This document shows positions 8,817-20,602 of a stretch of 64,000 bases of DNA, piece by piece (within the stretch, counting starts at the first letter, position 1; every line of letters begins with the position of its first letter). The stretch lies in the NCBI GenBank assembly GCA_030156395.1, contig JASGMP010000004.1:1-64000 (forward strand), written 5' to 3'. The notes under the pieces were generated by a model, which was given only the letters and a program-made list of their open reading frames with translations, did no database searches and was not told the DNA's origin. This DNA comes from Fidelibacterota bacterium (GTDB taxonomy: Bacteria; Fidelibacterota; Fidelibacteria; Fidelibacterales; Fidelibacteraceae). The position numbers were made by a program, and so were the translations under genes.

Positions 8817-9725
8817 TTATTCCTGACCATAAAGCCACATCAGCAGGACATCCCCGATACACTGGAGGCTTTCCGGAGCACATTTATCCGGTGTATCTTC
8901 ATGGGTGTGCCAATAATTCTGCCGGGCATTTGGATATTGAAAATCAATAATGTCCACGGTGGGTATACCTCCTTCCGACAGGGGAACATGGTCATCATAG
9001 ACCATCGGGCCGTATTTGGGGATAAATACATCTGCATATCCTGCCTTTTTAGCCGTATCCCAGATCTCTTGTGCCAGTCCGGGTGCAAAATGCAGGGAAT
9101 ACAGTTCATAGAATATCTGCAACTCCGAATCTCCGATCATATCGATCAAAATTCCTTTATGTGGAACCGGTTGCAGGGGATGTTGGCTATAATAGCGGCT
9201 TCCCTGACAAAACTCTTCAGGGTAATCGGGCCGGCCCATATCTTCACCATCCCAAAAAGCGATATCCACACCAATCGTTGGCGGAAATTGGTCAAGAATT
9301 TGGGCAAGATGAATCAGAACAGCCACTCCGCTGGCCCCGTCGTTGGCTCCCGGGATAGGTTCACTCCGGCGAAAACGATCTAAATCGGCCACCGGTCGTG
9401 TGTCAAAATGGGCTGATAACATAACCCTGTCCGGATTATTCGGCTGAAAGCGATATATAACATTGGTGAGATAAACGTCATTGGGCCCGTAGGGATTATA
9501 TCCGGTAAATTCTTGTGTGACAACAGTATCCGCCCATTTTTCACCGGTCTCAATAAGCCATTGAATACAAGTGGTATGCCCCTGGCTTCCCGGATTCCGG
9601 GGCCCCATATCAGTTTGAATCGTAAGGTACGTAAAAGCAAGATTGCCATCAAAGGAGGGCGTGGCTGCAGGTAACAGCGAACAGCTAAACACAAGCCAAA
9701 GCAGGCTTTTCAAAGCGATTTTCAT
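8817..9725 (-). CDS. M28 family peptidase / glutaminyl-cyclase-like, exported
   Basis: The protein has 302 residues with a signal peptide (cleavage near LLPAAT). It shows the metal ligands of the M28 fold: His106 in AHFDTRP, Asp129 in GANDGASG, Glu161 in WDGED, Asp199 in MIGD and His246 in YDDHVPLSEGG. The spacing and the DMGPRNPGS opening match the bacterial/animal-type glutaminyl-peptide cyclotransferase branch. In Bacteroidota periplasmic glutaminyl cyclases cyclise N-terminal Gln of exported proteins, so the placement directly after sprA is suggestive. Aminopeptidase activity is the alternative. Start and stop overlap and adjacency (ATGA with sprA) indicate co-translation. Confidence 0.82.
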   Translation of the reverse strand: MKIALKSLLWLVFSCSLLPAATPSFDGNLAFTYLTIQTDMGPRNPGSQGHTTCIQWLIETGEKWADTVVTQEFTGYNPYGPNDVYLTNVIYRFQPNNPDRVMLSAHFDTRPVADLDRFRRSEPIPGANDGASGVAVLIHLAQILDQFPPTIGVDIAFWDGEDMGRPDYPEEFCQGSRYYSQHPLQPVPHKGILIDMIGDSELQIFYELYSLHFAPGLAQEIWDTAKKAGYADVFIPKYGPMVYDDHVPLSEGGIPTVDIIDFQYPNARQNYWHTHEDTPDKCAPESLQCIGDVLLMWLYGQE

Positions 9726-12700
9726 CCCCGAATCCTTATGTTCACTTTAATCCCGAAATCCCGGGAAATCCGCGTGGGCATTTTACTCTTTGTTTCACTG
9801 TACATAAACCATGCGGCTCCATTAATATTCCGTGAGAACTGATAACTGAGTTCCGGTTGAAAAACCCAACTCTGACGCCGGTCCATCTCGGCAAATTTTT
9901 CTATATCACCTCTTCGCTGCAGTGTTTTCTGATTGCTGTATGTAAAGGTGGCTGAAATGTCCATGGAATTCTGAAGATTCACCTGCTCCATGAAGGGTAG
10001 GGGGATTGATAAACCGCCTTTATGGTTATATGCAAAGGTCAAAGATGCATTATCGGTAAACGTTCTTTTGGTATCTGCTTCCGTATTCCGGATATCCAGG
10101 CTCCGGGTCCACCGGGTTGTGGAACGAAGTCCGTTTTTCAATGCAATGGTCAGTCCAATCAGGGGCTGGTATTCATGGGTATAGGTTGAACTTTTTTCTT
10201 CATTATTTTGATATTGCACCATCTCTTTTCCGGCATATCGGTGCTCCAGTGTAACATTGGTTGTATATTTGCTTAAAAATTTCATGGTATTCAAACCGGT
10301 CCATCTCACAGACCAACCGGGGAGGGGAAAGCCGGCGCGTCCTTCAGTTCCCAGGGGAAAGAAATTCTGTGTAAAAGTTTCAGTGAGATTCACACCGGCT
10401 TCATTAACGGTAGACGACAGGGCAAAATCAAAAGTCGTAGAAATCCGTTTGGTCATCTGGTATCCACTTTGGAGATTCAAATTCCGTGTAATATTTAAAC
10501 CCCGGTAATTCTGTCCCACCTGATCCAGGGCAATGGAATCGCCGGGTGTATCGGAAAATCCATAACGGTATGCCCAGTTCGGGGATTTCTGCTCTGTACT
10601 GTCACCCAGCACCAATCCGTTATGACTCAGGCGACGTGTCTCGGAGGCCCGAATGGATATAGGTGAAAGATTATTGATAAAGCTAAAAAAGAGTTTCGTG
10701 GGAGATAGGTTGAGTGTTTTCTTTTCCTCTTTTTCCGGTTCGCGCTCCTCTGTCTCCTGAGGCCGGGTAGATTGTTGGCGTTGAGGACGTCGTGTTGCAG
10801 GACTTTTGGAGGGTGTAGAAGATCGTCCTTTTTCCGAGAAGATTGAACGAAGGTTCAGGTTCAGACTTCCACTGAGAGATCGGGTATTCCCGACATTGGC
10901 ATAATTTCGGGATAAGGGTTCGTTTTGGGTGAACGTAGAACCGTAGGTAAAGCTGGGCTTCAGCCAGGATGTAAATTCCGGTGAGAAAGTGGCGTTCAGA
11001 CCCTCTGTAATGTTCGTGACTTCGCCCGGGGAAAATTCTTTCAACACATCCAATTTACGAGACAGGTAATCACGGTAGTTTGCATCTGCCGTTCGGTTAT
11101 ATTTCAAGGCGATTTTATCTGTCGGGTTGTAATTCAATGTAAACTGCCGTTTCATGGTCCAGGTATGATTGGGGATTGTCTCGCCGGACCAAGGGGTATT
11201 TTTTGAAATATTCTCCGTCGTGCTGATATCATATTTAATTAAGGATGGTTTCCAATACAGGCGACTTTCATTAAAATGTTTCCCGATCAAGGGCATCCAG
11301 GCAAGGTATGGAATCCCTTTGTCTTTTTGGAGTTGGGCACTGTATGAAACTTTACCCTGATAGGTTTGAGCGCTTTTTTCCTGTGTAAACCGGTCTTTGC
11401 TTAAATTATCTGTCATGGTAAAGCTGAGGGAGGTACGGTCTATTGTCCACCGGGTGAGGAAAAAATCGGATGTGGAATTTTTGTTGAAAGAGGTCTGAAG
11501 ACTTTTCCGGGTAGACGATGTAATTAAACTATCCGGGACATCCGTAAGGAGTATATCACTTCCTGGAGAATATTTGGGCACCTGTTCTGACTCAGAAAAC
11601 GAGAGCGTCAGGGGAATTCTCAGATTCCACTTTTTGGGTAATAGCTCGTGTGTATTGAAAGTATACACCACATCAAGTTGTCTTGAATCGGATAAATTCT
11701 GGGTTCCGCCTTCAAAAGGATTCTTTTGATCTACTTCGTGGAATTCGGCTTCCTGAAATTTAGAATTGACCCGAAACGTGGAAACATCTCCCAGATTCAG
11801 GTTGGCACTTCCCCGGAAGGCCAGTCCTTTCTCCCGTTTGGGATCGCTTACCCGAAGTTCATTTATCCAGATATCTCCCGTATAATAATCCGGCGAATCA
11901 TTGATGACACCAATGATAAACTGGTCAATACGCGCCAGAGAGGGATCCCCAGCAACACGGTAAATCCGGCCGGTAGGATTTTGATTTTCATCCAGTTCAT
12001 GAAATTCCCGGACCTGTCCATCAGCCGAAATATGATAGGAAAGCGTGTCGGGGATTGTGGCTTGATTCAGCAATTTTAATTGTGTTAAGGTTTTAAAATC
12101 CACATTAATCGTATTTCTTTCATCCCAGCCAGCATAGACAGGGGTCACAATTTCATAATAGTCTGTCTCGGATGTGGTTCGCCCCAGGCGCAGGTAAAAA
12201 TCCACCTGCTTTTCATCCAGTGGATGGCGATCATCTCCATGGATAAACATCTTCATTCGGTTGTACAGAATATAGTTTTCACTCTGATACAACTGTTTAC
12301 GGGCAGCTGTCATGTGTTGCGGGGGAAGGTCCAGATGTTTGAGGGCCAGAGACTGTTCTTTTGAACGGATATTGTAAATCCTGTCCAGTTTTCCCTGTAC
12401 ACCATCCGGGGAATAGTATTCCGGGTTGTCGTCGGTATTCACAACCGTGATGGAAAACACATCATCATCTTTTTTAAATTGTGTGGAATCCATGATAGCC
12501 GCAACGCCTTTTTCCTGCCACTCATTTCCCACCAGGCCAATGGAAGCAATTTGCACGCTATCCTGTGAGGTCACACCGGCAAAAATCAGGCGGACAAACT
12601 CAATTTCCGTCATACTGGGATTATTCACCGTTTCCAGTGTATCCGTCAGGGGAATATGGTACAGACGCCACCCGGTTTTGGGGCTTCCGGGTAGGTCCGT

Positions 12701-15700
12701 AAATCGAGTCTCTGTCACATAATAAGGAGAACCGGGATCCTCAAGATCCAGCTCATAAATAAAATAATCATTGGAAACATCCAGACGGCCATTGTTATTG
12801 ATATCTTCCGTATCGGGGATATGCCCCGATTCGTCCTCATTCCCTTCGGTCCCGTTTATCCAGCGATATTCTTCTTTTCCGGGTTCAAATTCGTAATTAT
12901 CCATCATGGGGTCCCAGGTCAGCAAGGCTTCTTCTTCATCCGTCAATCCGTTCAGGCCGATATTTTCACCGTCATCAATGATACCATTGCCCACTACAAA
13001 TCCGGCTTCGGGTTTATCCTCCGTATCCAGCTTTCCGTTTTGTCCCGGTTTCCCATCCATGATATTGGGTGTTATTTTAAGATCCTCAGAAATTTTACCC
13101 AGATCAATCCGCAGCTTTCCCTTTTTTCCCTTCACCCAGATTTCGATATACTTACTTTGGGATTGGTCATAGGCACCAGAGTAAAGGGCTTTCATCATGC
13201 CGCCCCAGGAATTTTCCGGAACCCAGGGGGTCTCATCAGTTATCAGGGAATCGCCCGTAACATTTTCAATATAGGGATCGAGCACCATGGTGAGAACACG
13301 GGTGACATCATTTTGTTTGCTGATACTAACTTCCCGATTGGGCCAGATGCTGTTGGTGGGGACATCGTTATAGGGATTGTACCAAAAAAGGAAACCATTA
13401 TTGGGATATTGGAACTGAAAAAAATCATCCGCCGGCGGGCTTGCCATCCGCCAGCCCCGGCGTTCAACCCCCAGGGAAGTAACCCTCTTTGATCCTTCGA
13501 AATCATCAATATGAGCCACTCCATTCACATCCCCGGTTTCTTTGTTGGAAATTGTATTCGGATTGGGGACAATCTGGGCAATTTCTCCTGAAAGATGAAT
13601 ATAACTGTTCCCACTCGTGTTGATCAAAGGCAATTTGTTCAGGCCCCGTGTCAGCCAATCCAGATCTTTCCGGTATTCCCCGTTGATATCCCAGATCAGA
13701 TTGCGGTAAGGCTCTTCACCTACGCGTACCTGGTCGTCAATTGAGGATTTGTTAAAATACATAAAGGTCCCGCCCAGGAAATTCTGCCCTTTATCTCCAA
13801 AACGATATTCTGCCCGGGTTCCGGCGATGATTTTTTTATCCAGCTGGAAAACCTGGCGGGAATTATAGGAGATATCCAGTTCTGCATTCGGGTTCCTGGC
13901 TACGTCACTTTTCAACACAATCCGGCCGGTAAAATAATCAATTTCATAATCAATGCCCCGCACCAGCTTTACCTGATTGGCTGTAATTTCCTCACTGCCT
14001 TCAATAATCATAAAATCTTTCAATTCAATGACTTCGCTGCGATTACTGTATTTCACTTCGATATAGAATTTGTGTTCCGTGGCATGGGCATTGTTGTTCG
14101 TGGTTGTGTCATACAGGGCTGTGGAGGAAAAATCAGCAGGAAGACTGGGGTTATATTTTCCGTCAAAACATTGGGGATCCCCGGAACAGGCAGCTTCTTC
14201 TGAAGTAAAGGGCCGAATATAGGGAATCATGAGTTCCCCTTCCGTAAGATTGAGAAAATTGGCATTCAAATCGACCTGATCATCATGCTGCCCGAATACC
14301 CCGTTTTCATCTTGTCGGTCCAATCCAAACATCCGGATATAGGACGTGCCGTCCGCATAGCGTTCCTGTGGGGCATTTCCCCCGTCGTAATAAATTTTCA
14401 GCTCAAAACCCTCTTGTTCAATATTACGAGTTCCCAGGTAGTATACATTTTTAAATTCCAAATCCCAGGTGGGATGTTCGGGTCGGGGATTGACGGGTTT
14501 AATCAATTTCAAATTTTTTGGATATTCACCTGTCGCAACCAGATCACCTTCTGTAATCACCGGCTTGGGATCACCGGCCAACTGCGTTGTGTCTCGGTAA
14601 GCTATGGCCAGCACATCCCCTGTATTGACAGATGTCAGCATTTTGAAATATCCCAGGTTTTCATCCAGAGTATAATCTTTCCCCTCTTCCATCCGTTTGA
14701 AATAAAAATTCCGTTCCGCCCATGACTCGTACTGGGTTGTATCCCGCGGATCAACCCAGGCCGTAGCCATAAAAGCCCCTTCTTCCTGGGGCTGAACCTG
14801 CTTATATAGTTCGAATTGTGTAATTCGCCGACGGATCATAAATCGGGCTTGGTCATCCAGGGGATACATGTTTTGTCGGTAGATATCGCTGATATAGAAA
14901 TATTTACGCCGAATATACTCATAATCTTGAATAATAACCGGTTCGCTGTCACTGCCACCACCCCATTTTACTTTCTTATTTTGTCCTTCTTCCACCGACG
15001 CAATGGCAGTCACATCCAGTGGACCAAATTTCATCAGGGCCTTAATGCCATAAAGTCCCGTGGCATTTGCCTGTCCCTTGACAAAATTGGTTCCCGGAAG
15101 AGAGAGTGAAATGTTCCCGGCTTCAATTCTCTGAACAATTTCATCTTCTTTGCCTGTATAGTGAATCCGCAGGGTATTTTCAAAATTAAAATCCCGCTGA
15201 CTGTCCTGATCCACTTTGATACTAACACGGTCACCCACCCGGCCTTCGATGGTAAAATTTTGTTCCTGGTCCATAATAAAGCTGGTGGTTTTTGTCTGCT
15301 GATAGCTGGTGACCTGGTTGGATTGATCCCGTTGGGAGAGCTTTCCCGAAATGCTGATATTTCCGCTGACACGGAGGGAGACCCGCTGACCGGCAATATC
15401 CGCTCCAATGATTTCGATGCTGGTTTCCTGTTTATCTTCCTCTTTCTGATCGAATTTTGAGGCGATTTCCTTTTGCCAGATTTCCCGTGTTTTGGCCACT
15501 TTCATTTTTTCGTAATAACTGTCAAATGTCGCTACAACCGGTTTACGAATCATAATATCATTTTTGGATTCGTATTGTTTAAGAAGCTGGCCGTCTCCGG
15601 TAACCTCGCGGATAACCCGCAAACCGGGAACGGAAACAGGAAACGAATAGCGCAACGGCATATTCGGATTGGGTTTCAGGCGGTCAAGCCCACTCGGTTC

Positions 15701-15850
15701 TGAATAAATAAGTGGCATAATACCAGACGGTTTCCACTCATAGGTGAAACGTATATTTGCATCAGGAGATGGTGATTGGGCCCACAAAACAGATGCGGTG
15801 ATCAGACTGAGGAGGACCCGGGAAATCCGTTTTTTTACCACGATCATCAA
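9722..15850 (-). CDS. sprA: SprA-type outer-membrane translocon protein of type IX secretion
   Basis: The protein has 2042 residues with a signal peptide (ending near VLWAQSP). It is recognised as the SprA/Sov family, the giant barrel that forms the type IX secretion channel in Bacteroidota. Features include repeated SprA-type segments, the central region NGVAHIDDFEGSKRV followed by GWRMASPP, many paired Tyr/Arg-rich beta strands, and a C-terminal barrel portion ending in strand-like KVNIRIRG. A Pro/Arg/Glu-rich linker lies around residues 1665-1705. The length is somewhat below the about 2400 usual for Bacteroidota. It is the second gene after rdgB and is coupled to the M28 peptidase by ATGA. 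The other T9SS core genes (porK/L/M/N, sov partners) are not in this window. Confidence 0.85.
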   Translation of the reverse strand: MMIVVKKRISRVLLSLITASVLWAQSPSPDANIRFTYEWKPSGIMPLIYSEPSGLDRLKPNPNMPLRYSFPVSVPGLRVIREVTGDGQLLKQYESKNDIMIRKPVVATFDSYYEKMKVAKTREIWQKEIASKFDQKEEDKQETSIEIIGADIAGQRVSLRVSGNISISGKLSQRDQSNQVTSYQQTKTTSFIMDQEQNFTIEGRVGDRVSIKVDQDSQRDFNFENTLRIHYTGKEDEIVQRIEAGNISLSLPGTNFVKGQANATGLYGIKALMKFGPLDVTAIASVEEGQNKKVKWGGGSDSEPVIIQDYEYIRRKYFYISDIYRQNMYPLDDQARFMIRRRITQFELYKQVQPQEEGAFMATAWVDPRDTTQYESWAERNFYFKRMEEGKDYTLDENLGYFKMLTSVNTGDVLAIAYRDTTQLAGDPKPVITEGDLVATGEYPKNLKLIKPVNPRPEHPTWDLEFKNVYYLGTRNIEQEGFELKIYYDGGNAPQERYADGTSYIRMFGLDRQDENGVFGQHDDQVDLNANFLNLTEGELMIPYIRPFTSEEAACSGDPQCFDGKYNPSLPADFSSTALYDTTTNNNAHATEHKFYIEVKYSNRSEVIELKDFMIIEGSEEITANQVKLVRGIDYEIDYFTGRIVLKSDVARNPNAELDISYNSRQVFQLDKKIIAGTRAEYRFGDKGQNFLGGTFMYFNKSSIDDQVRVGEEPYRNLIWDINGEYRKDLDWLTRGLNKLPLINTSGNSYIHLSGEIAQIVPNPNTISNKETGDVNGVAHIDDFEGSKRVTSLGVERRGWRMASPPADDFFQFQYPNNGFLFWYNPYNDVPTNSIWPNREVSISKQNDVTRVLTMVLDPYIENVTGDSLITDETPWVPENSWGGMMKALYSGAYDQSQSKYIEIWVKGKKGKLRIDLGKISEDLKITPNIMDGKPGQNGKLDTEDKPEAGFVVGNGIIDDGENIGLNGLTDEEEALLTWDPMMDNYEFEPGKEEYRWINGTEGNEDESGHIPDTEDINNNGRLDVSNDYFIYELDLEDPGSPYYVTETRFTDLPGSPKTGWRLYHIPLTDTLETVNNPSMTEIEFVRLIFAGVTSQDSVQIASIGLVGNEWQEKGVAAIMDSTQFKKDDDVFSITVVNTDDNPEYYSPDGVQGKLDRIYNIRSKEQSLALKHLDLPPQHMTAARKQLYQSENYILYNRMKMFIHGDDRHPLDEKQVDFYLRLGRTTSETDYYEIVTPVYAGWDERNTINVDFKTLTQLKLLNQATIPDTLSYHISADGQVREFHELDENQNPTGRIYRVAGDPSLARIDQFIIGVINDSPDYYTGDIWINELRVSDPKREKGLAFRGSANLNLGDVSTFRVNSKFQEAEFHEVDQKNPFEGGTQNLSDSRQLDVVYTFNTHELLPKKWNLRIPLTLSFSESEQVPKYSPGSDILLTDVPDSLITSSTRKSLQTSFNKNSTSDFFLTRWTIDRTSLSFTMTDNLSKDRFTQEKSAQTYQGKVSYSAQLQKDKGIPYLAWMPLIGKHFNESRLYWKPSLIKYDISTTENISKNTPWSGETIPNHTWTMKRQFTLNYNPTDKIALKYNRTADANYRDYLSRKLDVLKEFSPGEVTNITEGLNATFSPEFTSWLKPSFTYGSTFTQNEPLSRNYANVGNTRSLSGSLNLNLRSIFSEKGRSSTPSKSPATRRPQRQQSTRPQETEEREPEKEEKKTLNLSPTKLFFSFINNLSPISIRASETRRLSHNGLVLGDSTEQKSPNWAYRYGFSDTPGDSIALDQVGQNYRGLNITRNLNLQSGYQMTKRISTTFDFALSSTVNEAGVNLTETFTQNFFPLGTEGRAGFPLPGWSVRWTGLNTMKFLSKYTTNVTLEHRYAGKEMVQYQNNEEKSSTYTHEYQPLIGLTIALKNGLRSTTRWTRSLDIRNTEADTKRTFTDNASLTFAYNHKGGLSIPLPFMEQVNLQNSMDISATFTYSNQKTLQRRGDIEKFAEMDRRQSWVFQPELSYQFSRNINGAAWFMYSETKSKMPTRISRDFGIKVNIRIRG

Positions 15851-16554: not shown

Positions 16555-17973
16555 TCACCTGATGAGCCGTGAGTGGGTTTCTTCCAGACGATGGAGCCGG
16601 TACCGCAACCAGATAAAGGCCAGAGAACCGGCCAAAACCGACGAAATCATATTGGAATACCAGATATAATGAAGGGGTTTTTGCAAATAAATGACAAAAA
16701 AGACGGCAAACAGGATGCTGACGAACACAACTCTGAGGGATGTAAGAATCAAGCCGGGAAGACCGCGCCCAAGCCCCTGGAAAACTCTTCCGGAAATGAC
16801 AGAGATCACAATAAACGGATAAACAAAGACCAGCAGACGTGTATACTGGATGGCAATGCTCAGGATTTCATGATTAGAAGTAAATATTCTGTAAAAATAA
16901 GGAGCACCCAGATAAAATAAAACACCAATGATTAAAGCAATAAATATTCCTCGTGATATGGCGTAATACCAGGTCTTCCGGATTTTTTCATACTCACCTG
17001 CACCATAAAACATACCAGTCAGAGTAACCATCCCATTGGCCATAGACATAATCGGTAAATGGAAAACCTGATCCAGGTTCCGGGCAATACCAAAGGCGGC
17101 GACGGCCTCTGTGCCGAAGCGAATCAGCAGACGGTTAAACACCATTCCACCCAGAGACATGATAATCATAGCCATAGATGCAGGAATACCGATGCGAAAA
17201 ATTTCTTTTAGAAGTGAAAAGGAAAAATGGAATTCACTGAACCTGAAGTGGATATAGGATTTTTTGCGTTTGAACAAATAATTAAGAAAGAAGACCGTCA
17301 CAATAAACTGGCTTAAAATAGTGGCCAGGGCTGCTCCCCGAATTCCCAGGTTTAAGGTAAAAATAAAAAGAGGATCCAGCATAACATTCAATAGAGTTCC
17401 GGTGATCTGAAATCGAATGGGAGTTACCGTGTCTCCCTCACCGGATAAAATAGACCGAAAAAAAACGTTCATAATCTGAAAAATAAACCCCAGGACAATG
17501 ATGGAAAAATAGTCCACGGCCAGTGGAATGATTTCCGGTGTGGCCCCCAAAAACTCAAAGATGGAATATCTGAAGAAATAACCTCCAACTGAGATTATTA
17601 CCCCAAAGAAAATTCCCATCAGCACTCCGTGCTCTGCGGAGTTATCCGCATCTCTTTTTGCGTTTGCTCCTAAAAAACGTGAAATCACACTGGTAACCCC
17701 AGATCCCAAGCCAAAGGTGATCCCTATAGCAAAAAAGAGTAGGGGCATGGTAAAACTGAGCGCGGCTATGGCTTCACCACCAAGTCGGCCGACAAACACC
17801 ATATCGATAAGAGTGTATAATGTCTGTACTGCCATTCCAAACATGATGGGTACCGAAAGCTGCCAGAGAGCTCGGTGTGGATTCTTAATGAAGTTACTGA
17901 CTTTATTTTTCTTTTTGTTACTCAGTATGGGCCTTCCATATTTTTTTGCAAAAGTGGTTGAATTTAACATCAT
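16555..17973 (-). CDS. MATE family multidrug/organic cation exporter
   Basis: This 472-residue integral membrane protein has about 12 hydrophobic helices in two homologous halves. The first MatE repeat starts at LWQLSVPIMFGMAVQTLYTLIDMVFVGRLG (residues about 37-66) with the typical ALSFTMP and GLGSGVTSVISRFLGA sequences. The second repeat starts at KEIFRIGIPASMAMI. MATE proteins use H+ or Na+ gradients to export drugs or toxic metabolites. About 30 hydrophilic residues precede the first helix, so a later start is possible; no clear ribosome binding site decides it. It is transcribed divergently from the ParB-fold gene, 85 bases away. Confidence 0.88.
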   Translation of the reverse strand: MMLNSTTFAKKYGRPILSNKKKNKVSNFIKNPHRALWQLSVPIMFGMAVQTLYTLIDMVFVGRLGGEAIAALSFTMPLLFFAIGITFGLGSGVTSVISRFLGANAKRDADNSAEHGVLMGIFFGVIISVGGYFFRYSIFEFLGATPEIIPLAVDYFSIIVLGFIFQIMNVFFRSILSGEGDTVTPIRFQITGTLLNVMLDPLFIFTLNLGIRGAALATILSQFIVTVFFLNYLFKRKKSYIHFRFSEFHFSFSLLKEIFRIGIPASMAMIIMSLGGMVFNRLLIRFGTEAVAAFGIARNLDQVFHLPIMSMANGMVTLTGMFYGAGEYEKIRKTWYYAISRGIFIALIIGVLFYLGAPYFYRIFTSNHEILSIAIQYTRLLVFVYPFIVISVISGRVFQGLGRGLPGLILTSLRVVFVSILFAVFFVIYLQKPLHYIWYSNMISSVLAGSLAFIWLRYRLHRLEETHSRLIR

Positions 17974-18058
17974 TGCACTGTATTTCTCAGAGATTTCCCA
18001 GAAAGTTCCGTTACGTCAGAGTAGACTTTTATGTAAATTCTACAGAAAGGAGGACGGG

Positions 18059-18991
18059 ATGGAATTGATGCACATTCCTTTAGAACAGATCCAAATACAA
18101 AATAGCCATTTTCGGTACAGAACGCATCTGACAGATGAAAAGCTGGCACAAACTATGAAAAATAGCGGCATCTGTGATCCGGTATATCTTTTAATAAGGG
18201 ATAAATCCCCCTCGATTATCGATGGATTTAAACGTATTCACGTGTTATCCGAACACTTTCCGTCTTCTTTTCCCGTACCGGCTGTTACGTTGAAGGAGAA
18301 AGAGCTTACATGGAAAACTCACCTTGCTCTTGTTTTGAACCAAGATACAAGAGGTACACTTCCGTTTATCGAAAAGGTGTGGGCATATCAAATGCTTAAA
18401 AAAAACTATGCCATAAGAGATGATTCAGAAATCTTACGGGCGCTGAACCTTCCGGACCGGCCGGATTATCATAAAATTTACCCGCAATTAACAAGAATTC
18501 CGCAGGAATGGATTCGTTTTTTTACAGATCATCTGGTACCTGGGCGGAGGATTAAAACCATGGTCGAAGCCATCGACTTAAAGTCATGTACATCCCTGCT
18601 CAATGTCGTGCCTGGTTTGAACCGTCTGGAACAGATGATAATTATGCTTTCGGAAATCGAAAAGCGGGAAAAGCTACCTGCCGCAAAAATCCTACAAAAT
18701 CTTTTGATTGACATTCAGGAAGAACCTATCCGTTCGGAAACTCTGTTCCTGCGCCTCCGGGAAATTCGATTCCCACTTCGAAGCAAGTATGAAAAAAAGT
18801 TAGATGACGCGTTGAAAGCATTGCATCCTCCGCCCTTTGTCTCTACACAGTGCGACAAAAACGGGGAGCGGCCAGGGGCAGAAATTTTTGCAAATATTCA
18901 AAGTCCAAAGGACTCCGAAGAATTTTTATCCTGGTTCGAAAAAAAAAAGGACTCCATCAATACACTGCTGAATGAGCGTCTCGAGTTATGA
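18059..18991 (+). CDS. ParB-like (ParB/Srx fold) nuclease-domain protein paired with SPL-like radical SAM
   Basis: The start is fixed by AAGGAGG five bases before the ATG, giving 310 residues. The N-terminal about 90 residues have the ParB-like pattern: IPLEQIQIQNSHFRYR, an EKLAQTMKNSGICDPVYL helix-strand, then IIDGFKRIHVL in the place where ParB proteins have the GERRxRA motif. The rest is helical, with no recognised domain. It lacks a clear CTP-binding C-motif and is therefore not the chromosome-partition ParB. Its stop overlaps the start of the radical SAM gene as ATGA, so the two products very probably work together. The function is unknown; DNA-related activity is inferred from the fold and partner. 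Confidence 0.72.
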   Translation: MELMHIPLEQIQIQNSHFRYRTHLTDEKLAQTMKNSGICDPVYLLIRDKSPSIIDGFKRIHVLSEHFPSSFPVPAVTLKEKELTWKTHLALVLNQDTRGTLPFIEKVWAYQMLKKNYAIRDDSEILRALNLPDRPDYHKIYPQLTRIPQEWIRFFTDHLVPGRRIKTMVEAIDLKSCTSLLNVVPGLNRLEQMIIMLSEIEKREKLPAAKILQNLLIDIQEEPIRSETLFLRLREIRFPLRSKYEKKLDDALKALHPPPFVSTQCDKNGERPGAEIFANIQSPKDSEEFLSWFEKKKDSINTLLNERLEL

Positions 18992-20157
18992 CCAATAAGA
19001 ATAAGAAATCCCTGATCGTCCTGAACGGGGCGCAAGGTGAAATTTTACAGCAGTTCAAACGTTTTTATCACGTCGAAAATTTAATTTCTGCATCGAACCC
19101 CGAAGATTTGCTCCCCGGAAATAAACCGGAACACGTCATAAAAAACAAAATTTTATTATCAAAAAGCAGAGGGCAAATCTTTAAACCCTGTCCGGGTACA
19201 TCTGGCGAGTATCTTTGTTGTAATTACTGGGTCCTGAACCAGTCTATGAATTGCCCCTTCAACTGCAGCTACTGCATTCTTCAATACTATTTAAACAATC
19301 CTTATCTAACCGTGTTCACTGATACAGAACAGATCATCGCCCAGATACGGGATCGAATGGCGTGTGAACCCCGGCGGTTTTTTAGAATTGGAACCGGTGA
19401 ACTGGCAGACAGTCTTGCATTGAACGAAGAAGGACATTTTGCCCAGCCCTTGATTCGTTTTGCAGCCCATACTCCAAATATGATTTTGGAACTGAAAACA
19501 AAATCCGATCGGATTCAATCCCTGTTACAGGAAAATCACAAAGGAAAAACCATTCTGGCCTGGTCTATTAATCCTCCGGCTGTTATAGCAGCAGAAGAAC
19601 ATGGAACTGCATCACTGATCCGGCGCCTGAATGCTGTCAAATTAGCTGTACGTGCCGGATATAAATTGGCGTTTCATTTTGATCCAATCCTTGATTACCC
19701 GTCATGGAAAAAAGATTACGAAACAACTATTCAGCAGTTGTTTCTTGTGGCACCTTCTTCTCAGATTGCATGGATATCCATGGGAACTCTCCGTTTTCCG
19801 CCGGATATGAAAGAAAAAATTCTGAACCGTTTTCCCGCTACCCAGCTATTAAACCCAGAAATGGTAAGAGGTATGGATGGTAAATTACGATATTTCAAAC
19901 CCTTGCGTATTCACCTGTATCGTCATATTTACCAATTGCTAAGGAAATATGGCGGACCGGATCTGTTTATCTATTTTTGTATGGAAGATCCAGAAACATG
20001 GAGAGCTGTCATGGACAAAGCCCCGGATAGTAACGGAGAACTGGACTACTGGTTTGCCCGCCACCTCTACCATCACTTTCCGGGACTGCTTACCGAACCA
20101 CCGCGTTTAAATGATTACCTCCATTTCAACACACCCCGACACCGGGATCAACCTTGA
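18988..20157 (+). CDS. SPL-like radical SAM protein (spore photoproduct lyase family)
   Basis: The protein has 389 residues. The radical SAM cluster motif is Cys89-x3-Cys93-x2-Cys96 in NCPFNCSYCILQYYL. The overall pattern (LQ-x-YLN after the last Cys, RIGTGELADSLAL at 133-145, LELKTKS, and WSINPP) is that of the SplB/COG1533 family. True spore photoproduct lyases have Tyr directly after the third cluster Cys and a catalytic Cys in an S-C-T-S stretch; here Ile97 follows the cluster and the later segment reads RIGTGE, so thymine-dimer lyase activity as in Bacillus is unlikely. The gene overlaps the ParB-fold gene upstream (ATGA) and the convergent ssb by ten bases. Confidence 0.82.
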   Translation: MTNKNKKSLIVLNGAQGEILQQFKRFYHVENLISASNPEDLLPGNKPEHVIKNKILLSKSRGQIFKPCPGTSGEYLCCNYWVLNQSMNCPFNCSYCILQYYLNNPYLTVFTDTEQIIAQIRDRMACEPRRFFRIGTGELADSLALNEEGHFAQPLIRFAAHTPNMILELKTKSDRIQSLLQENHKGKTILAWSINPPAVIAAEEHGTASLIRRLNAVKLAVRAGYKLAFHFDPILDYPSWKKDYETTIQQLFLVAPSSQIAWISMGTLRFPPDMKEKILNRFPATQLLNPEMVRGMDGKLRYFKPLRIHLYRHIYQLLRKYGGPDLFIYFCMEDPETWRAVMDKAPDSNGELDYWFARHLYHHFPGLLTEPPRLNDYLHFNTPRHRDQP

Positions 20158-20537
20158 TCGATCTTGGTTGAATCGTTTGCGTTATTCCCGTTTTCCCCCT
20201 TTTTCCGGGCACCAAGCATGGTAAGCGTTTCTGCAATGATTTCAGTAACAAAGTGCTTGTTGTTATCTTTATCTGTCCATTCCCGGGATTGCAGACGACC
20301 TTCTACATACAGCAACTGTCCTTTTTTCAGACTTTTTGCGTATTCCGCCAAACTCCTCCAGGCTACAACCCTGTGCCAGTCTGTCCGCTCCTGAAATTCT
20401 CCCTCTTCATCCCGCCAAATAAAATTGGTGGCTAGATTGAATGTGGTGGTCATGATGTCATTGGGAGTATACCGCATTTCCGGCTGGTTTCCCAAATAAC
20501 CGACAAGTATTACCTTGTTTGCAGAATTTCGGTTCAT
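20148..20537 (-). CDS. ssb: Single-stranded DNA-binding protein without acidic C-terminal tip
   Basis: The chosen ATG has AAGGAGG five bases upstream and lies downstream of a strong promoter; the longer frame reaching 20582 would begin upstream of that promoter's predicted transcript start. This gives 129 residues. The OB-fold is complete (NKVILVGYLGNQPEMRYT, WHRVVAWRSLAEY, GQLLYVEGRLQSREW). The tail ends NDSTKIDQG, with no D-D-x-P-F acidic tip, which in other SSBs recruits partner proteins. A second, canonical SSB is encoded near 43.6 kb. It is convergent with the radical SAM gene and next to dnaA. It may be a specialised SSB for competence, repair or a mobile function. Confidence 0.9.
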   Translation of the reverse strand: MNRNSANKVILVGYLGNQPEMRYTPNDIMTTTFNLATNFIWRDEEGEFQERTDWHRVVAWRSLAEYAKSLKKGQLLYVEGRLQSREWTDKDNNKHFVTEIIAETLTMLGARKKGENGNNANDSTKIDQG

Positions 20538-20573
20538 AGCTGCCTCCTTACGTGTTGTGTCTTTCTTATAAAA

Positions 20574-20602
20574 AGTATACACAAAATAAAAATTGTTGTC
20601 AA
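20574..20602 (-). promoter_or_regulatory. Strong predicted sigma-70 promoter of ssb
   Basis: On the minus strand a perfect TTGACA (20602-20597), a 17-base spacer and TATACT (20579-20574) lie 37 bases before the ssb start codon. This is the closest match to consensus seen in the window and predicts a transcript start near 20567. Confidence 0.7.

Follow-up and report, generated by a model that had tools for sequence, protein, structure and literature searches.

What joins a protein of the chromosome-partition (ParB) fold to a radical SAM enzyme, and which reaction might such a couple serve? The question is raised by two genes of the window, the whole 64,000-nucleotide stretch of Fidelibacterota DNA, from a Candidatus Marinimicrobia genome, analysed here, which encode a ParB/Noc paralogue (P) and a radical SAM enzyme of the spore photoproduct lyase (SPL) fold (S). 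The stop codon of the P gene and the start codon of the S gene share the sequence ATGA, and this −4 overlap is present in every same-genus copy retrieved. The linkage of the pair, as described in the initial annotation, is borne out by the coordinates, by the overlap and by the ribosome-binding site of P, and so is its position between an exporter and an SSB lacking the acidic tip (Table 1). We propose, with a probability of roughly 0.45, that P and S are the central components of a multi-gene radical SAM system, as yet uncharacterised, which acts on nucleic acid or nucleoside and in which P would be the adaptor of S. As regards the flanks, the tipless SSB gene shares its strand with dnaA and lies downstream of it, and similar-sized genes adjoin S in the genus of the window only. 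Further away, positions 9722–15850 of the minus strand encode a 2042-residue protein resembling the SprA/Sov-type outer membrane secretion protein.

Table 1. Features of the P–S locus, in coordinates of the window.
Feature	Position	Strand	Basis or remark
MATE exporter, neighbour outside the system	16555..17973	-	TIGR00797, 272.8 bits
Shine-Dalgarno AAGGAGG of the P gene	18047..18053	+	Direct sequence reading; 5 bases before ATG
P, ParB/Noc paralogue, 310 aa, three ParB-type domains	18059..18991	+	TIGR04285, predicted structure, Foldseek, profile/hhalign
P, Box II position, GFKR (residues 56-59) replacing GERR	18224..18235	+	Sequence; IDGFKR is residues 54-59
P, Glu270, sole invariant residue of the family	18866..18868	+	Alignment of 53 sequences
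S, SPL-fold radical SAM enzyme, subfamily named SPL-A, 389 aa	18988..20157	+	PF20903, AlphaFold, Foldseek
S, Cys68, invariant; aligned with Gt SPL position 76 (S76C mutant site)	19189..19191	+	Alignment with Gt SPL
S, Cys77-Cys78; Cys78 invariant	19216..19221	+	Alignment
S, radical SAM CX3CX2C, Cys89/Cys93/Cys96, with Tyr95	19252..19275	+	Sequence
S, invariant Glu138, aligned with SPL Cys141(Bs)/Cys140(Gt)	19399..19401	+	Alignment
S, Cys331-Met-Glu (CME), invariant, near the C-terminus	19978..19986	+	Alignment
SSB without acidic tip, convergent neighbour	20148..20582	-	TIGR00621, 128.7 bits; 10-nt overlap with the 3' end of S

That P and S constitute a genuine conserved functional pair is supported by a co-occurrence far beyond chance. 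In a sample of 199 Marinimicrobia genomes, many of them incomplete, SPL-A was found in 62, P in 63 and both in 59; one of the three SPL-A genomes without P is 72% complete, and in the other two S is cut by the contig end. Among 297 genomes of the Desulfobacterota (the phylum of a Desulfamplus genome), the corresponding numbers are 169, 146 and 139, with a Fisher odds ratio of 80 (p = 1.5e-44, uncorrected for phylogeny). The outcome named at the start as refuting the pair, two genes never found together elsewhere, is thus not what is seen. P lies directly upstream of S on the same strand in 43 of the 59 Marinimicrobia genomes carrying both, and is adjacent to S in 80 of the 126 Desulfobacterota genomes with coordinates for both; whenever the two are adjacent, in either phylum, P is the upstream gene. 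About one-third of the Desulfobacterota genomes having both carry P far from S. SPL-A is also present in Elusimicrobia, and one of two such genomes has a distant P. In the tree of S, Marinimicrobia and Desulfobacterota form separate groups, one long branch excepted, which makes the pair old in both phyla. Judged from their lineages, its hosts look mostly anaerobic.

These distributions leave little room for a housekeeping cluster whose adjacency was inherited and whose members are functionally uncoupled. The missing phylogenetic correction of the Fisher tests would favour that reading, as would the immediate upstream genes, which are mostly housekeeping and variable (dnaE, purC, nadB-like). 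However, the two genes have been separated repeatedly with their co-occurrence kept in two phyla, the adjacent order is always P then S, and both are absent together from most other genomes, so that an uncoupled cluster is largely refuted and highly improbable. In the genus g2, P and S lie on different contigs and S follows dnaE by about 3 bp (L060, L065, L095, L097 and L099). Two further candidates were rejected. Open frames of 700–806 residues in two genomes (G389 and G400), which resembled fusions, are GC-rich read-through frames; a mobile element finds no backing, since plasmids and two phage records contain only distant SPL homologues (29% identity or less), and no GT2 glycosyltransferase partner was found in the plasmid records.

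The P protein gave no useful match in a Pfam scan, PF02195 included, and its match to the Noc model TIGR04285 (residues 4–118, E = 5e-5) falls below the cut-off. The best Foldseek matches of its AlphaFold model (pLDDT 93.5) are Noc, ParB and KorB, with PadC also found, and the family profile retrieves the solved Noc at E = 1e-17. This profile match, the model and the Foldseek results place a ParB N-domain and an HTH domain in P. The third, dimerisation-type domain is seen in the C-terminal helix-strand-strand-helix of the model and in an hhalign alignment of the P family with the window genome's own ParB, which includes the C-terminal dimerisation domain and runs over residues 25–294 (E = 1.9e-11). 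Taken together, the alignment through the C-terminal domain and the profile and fold matches indicate that P is a complete ParB paralogue. Its initial placement in the ParB/Srx fold therefore holds as far as the ParB fold is concerned and was too narrow in extent, since the alignment spans all three ParB domains.

Despite aligning with ParB, Noc and KorB along the whole chain, P differs from them in several respects. It has a radical SAM partner, no ParA was found beside it among the annotated neighbouring genes, and a separate, canonical ParB with an intact GERR is encoded elsewhere in the window genome (G000:C7). The Box II GERR of ParB and Noc is not conserved in the P family: it is replaced by GFKR in the window, where the substitution of IDGFKR for GERRxR was read correctly at the outset, and by CGRR in Desulfobacterota, and several Marinimicrobia families have it changed or have lost it. 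Across the 53 aligned sequences there is no conserved enzyme-like site, and the sole invariant residue, Glu270, is located in the C-terminal domain. An unconserved Box II and a single invariant residue make an NTPase or nuclease role shared by the family unlikely, which speaks against the earlier idea of P as the source of NTP binding or DNA cutting, because Box II varies or is lost in the very lineages that keep the pair. To judge from these alignments, P more probably serves as a structural, adaptor or DNA-binding protein; the poor conservation of the HTH weakens the case for DNA binding of a sequence-specific kind. A PADLOC scan gave no defence-system match, the only hit being JetB3 at E = 0.003 for P.

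A 2025 survey of orphan ParB-CTPase-fold proteins (PMC12704722) collected its set by TIGR00180 and PF02195 searches in which the gathering cut-offs were applied. Like P, those proteins have a ParB fold outside a parAB operon and a diversified function; unlike them, the window P falls under the gathering cut-offs of that survey, the main text of which does not contain the words 'radical', 'photoproduct' or 'glycosyltransferase'.

The architecture of P also bears on whether it could be a co-transcribed regulator of the KorB/Noc kind that takes no part in catalysis by S, with the enzymes of the locus (S and the nucleosidase and glycosyltransferase described below) making or salvaging a glycosylated small molecule. 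P is the upstream gene of the operon, its fold is close to those of KorB and Noc, it evolves fast (34–75% identity within the genus, against 64–89% for S), and other S subfamilies have the two accessory enzymes and S in the absence of P. Yet P tracks SPL-A even when the genes are unlinked, as in genus g2 and parts of the Desulfobacterota, which would be unusual for a local regulator, and the HTH lies outside the conserved parts, the only invariant residue being in the C-terminal domain. We regard a purely regulatory P as rather doubtful, and favour its participation in the radical SAM system as an adaptor.

S scores 90.8 bits against the SPL family PF20903 (cut-off 27). With TIGR04070 it reaches 112.5 bits, against an equivalog cut-off of 400, and it remains well under both NCBIfam SPL equivalog cut-offs. 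The AlphaFold model of S (pLDDT 90.9) matches the SPL structure 4rh0 over 350 columns (Foldseek E = 1.6e-22), with a whole-fold TM-score of 0.68–0.81 depending on normalisation. The fold matches ranking next after SPL include LIAS and biotin synthase, which is weak evidence for a second cluster. S thus shares with SplB (PF20903, TIGR04070) the whole fold, the CX3CX2C motif, many barrel residues and Tyr97 (B. subtilis numbering, Bs), retained as Tyr95. Where SplB has Cys141 and Tyr99, however, S has Glu138 and Ile97, the latter being Val in most Desulfobacterota; it carries three additional invariant cysteines, Cys68, Cys78 and Cys331, the last within a C-terminal CME; and its partner is a ParB-type protein instead of SplA. 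Since the relay between Cys141 and Tyr99 regenerates SAM in SPL (PMC3742179), its loss suggests that SAM would be consumed by S.

Cys68, Cys78, Cys331, Glu138, Asp141 and Ser142 are common to about 90 SPL-A sequences, in which the catalytic Cys of SPL is absent and Glu138 invariant. The three cysteines are missing together from SplB and from the most distant SPL relatives tested, and in full-length members Cys68 never occurs without the other two. The initial annotation had S as an SPL-family enzyme devoid of the catalytic Cys and the post-cluster Tyr; both substitutions are confirmed, while Cys68, an invariant residue at the position of the alternative Gt S76C donor, had been overlooked. In the solved Gt SPL double mutant C140A/S76C a new cysteine stands at position 76, and the C. 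acetobutylicum SPL is reported to use Cys74, which lies across the pocket (PMC5368176); the same paper cites Benjdia et al. (2014) for a rewiring of the hydrogen-transfer path. By sequence comparison, Cys68 may be the hydrogen donor of S, or Cys68, Cys78 and Cys331 may be ligands of a second iron-sulphur cluster.

The first of these options could make S a DNA-lesion lyase of the Clostridium type, with its donor at the position of Cys74(Ca)/S76(Gt), P scanning or marking DNA as a ParB-type clamp and a nucleosidase doing nothing but remove 5'-deoxyadenosine. Besides the alignment of the invariant Cys68 with the engineered Gt site and the clostridial precedent, the extent of the SPL fold and the dnaE gene that immediately precedes S in genus g2 would fit such an enzyme. 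It is nevertheless unlikely: position 99 is Ile or Val, the profile scores lie far under the SPL equivalog cut-off, Cys68 is always accompanied by Cys78 and Cys331 in full-length members, and spore photoproduct is an improbable substrate for the many hosts that seem to be anaerobes without sporulation. A lesion lyase would, moreover, leave the glycosyltransferase unexplained.

That glycosyltransferase (G, of the GT2 type) and a nucleosidase (N, of the PNP_UDP_1 type) are new partners, absent from the first reading, and both are shown to have a genetic link with S or with the P–S pair. Seven Marinimicrobia loci from several families have the order N-G-P-S, their genes overlapping or lying close together; an eighth has it mirrored on the other strand. 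Desulfobacterota loci read GT2-P-S, their GT2 being 41–57% identical to that of Marinimicrobia, and one of them encodes a 513-residue nucleosidase–GT2 fusion directly upstream of P-S (L204:3978-5516); the order in Tharpella is P-S-nucleosidase. More distant S subfamilies without P have a nucleosidase upstream, in some cases with GT2 preceding it, and Fusobacterium vincentii has a natural nucleosidase–SPL fusion of 623 residues (L208:2080-3951), whose MTAN-like N-terminal region, identified by reading the sequence and unscored by Pfam, precedes the SPL-like radical SAM domain.

With orthology defined by a score cut-off of E = 1e-60 together with position, GT2 is present in 101 of the 199 Marinimicrobia genomes, in 93 of them together with S; of the remaining eight, seven have a completeness below 90%. 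In 40 of 48 genomes the gene immediately before GT2 is that of the nucleosidase. In the genus of the window the N-G unit is placed elsewhere in the chromosome, as seen in two sister genomes with a nucleosidase upstream of GT2 (L230:5128-5736 and L238:4748-5428). The GT2 gene of the window genome (G000:C103:24801-25631) sits at the very end of its contig, so a nucleosidase there would fall beyond the break. GT2 was not found in most g2 genomes, which, with the separate contigs of P and S in that genus, implies that neither the operon nor GT2 is obligatory. As GT2 almost never occurs without S, yet S occurs without GT2 in g2, S probably acts first.

In the HpnH–HpnG, MqnE–MqnB and ArsS pathways, too, a PNP-type nucleosidase comes after a radical SAM enzyme, in some cases with a GT2, but the radical SAM families of these pathways differ from that of S. 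None of them is known to have a ParB-type partner. A hopanoid pathway (HpnG–HpnH) was rejected, as HpnH exceeded the cut-off in 0 of 12 genomes. The logic of nucleosidase plus radical enzyme is also that of QueK–QueL queuine salvage, by which C. difficile salvages queuosine (PMC11477304, PMC11570991). A pathway of QueK/QueL-like or hopanoid-like type, in which the nucleosidase frees a base that S then splits, or S adenosylates a lipid, is nonetheless very improbable here: one Elusimicrobia neighbour of S is QueA, but QueK belongs to a different nucleosidase family (IPR023186), and neither a preQ1 nor any other Rfam riboswitch reached the gathering score in 32 loci. In the collection of papers searched, none joined ParB, radical SAM and spore photoproduct lyase, and searches on related SPL function gave nothing on the S subfamily.

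The proposed system, with P as the adaptor of S, would combine these components as follows. S would consume SAM and use radical chemistry to modify or repair a nucleic-acid or nucleoside substrate, its three extra cysteines binding an auxiliary iron-sulphur cluster or Cys68 donating hydrogen. P would dimerise and, as a dedicated adaptor and no general CTP clamp, present or recruit the substrate or locate S on DNA. The nucleosidase could remove 5'-deoxyadenosine or take adenine off an adenosylated product, and GT2 could glycosylate the product. The chemistry is probably nucleotide- or nucleic-acid-related, as was first suggested from the choice of partners, because of the ParB/Noc DNA-binding architecture, the SPL fold and the nucleosidase. 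A more specific and decidedly speculative version would be an anaerobic counterpart of base-J-type hypermodification of DNA (or RNA), in which P directs S to the nucleic acid, S functionalises a base with the help of a second cluster at Cys68/78/331, the nucleosidase trims the adenosyl remnant and GT2 adds a sugar.

With P-S in about half of the sampled Desulfobacterota species and about one-third of Marinimicrobia, a system of this kind would show the recruitment of a partition fold to enzymology. It would also turn SPL-like enzymes, usually annotated as DNA repair, into a testable pathway with a nucleosidase, a GT2 and a ParB paralogue as partners and with Glu138, Cys68, Cys78 and Cys331 as named residues. 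A further gene, of 110–190 residues, recurs in eight loci (L171, L173, L175, L176, L178, L179, L186 and L199); it lies either immediately before the gene preceding P, which encodes GT2 or SAICAR synthetase, or within a few genes of P-S, and both members scanned contain a Rho_N domain.
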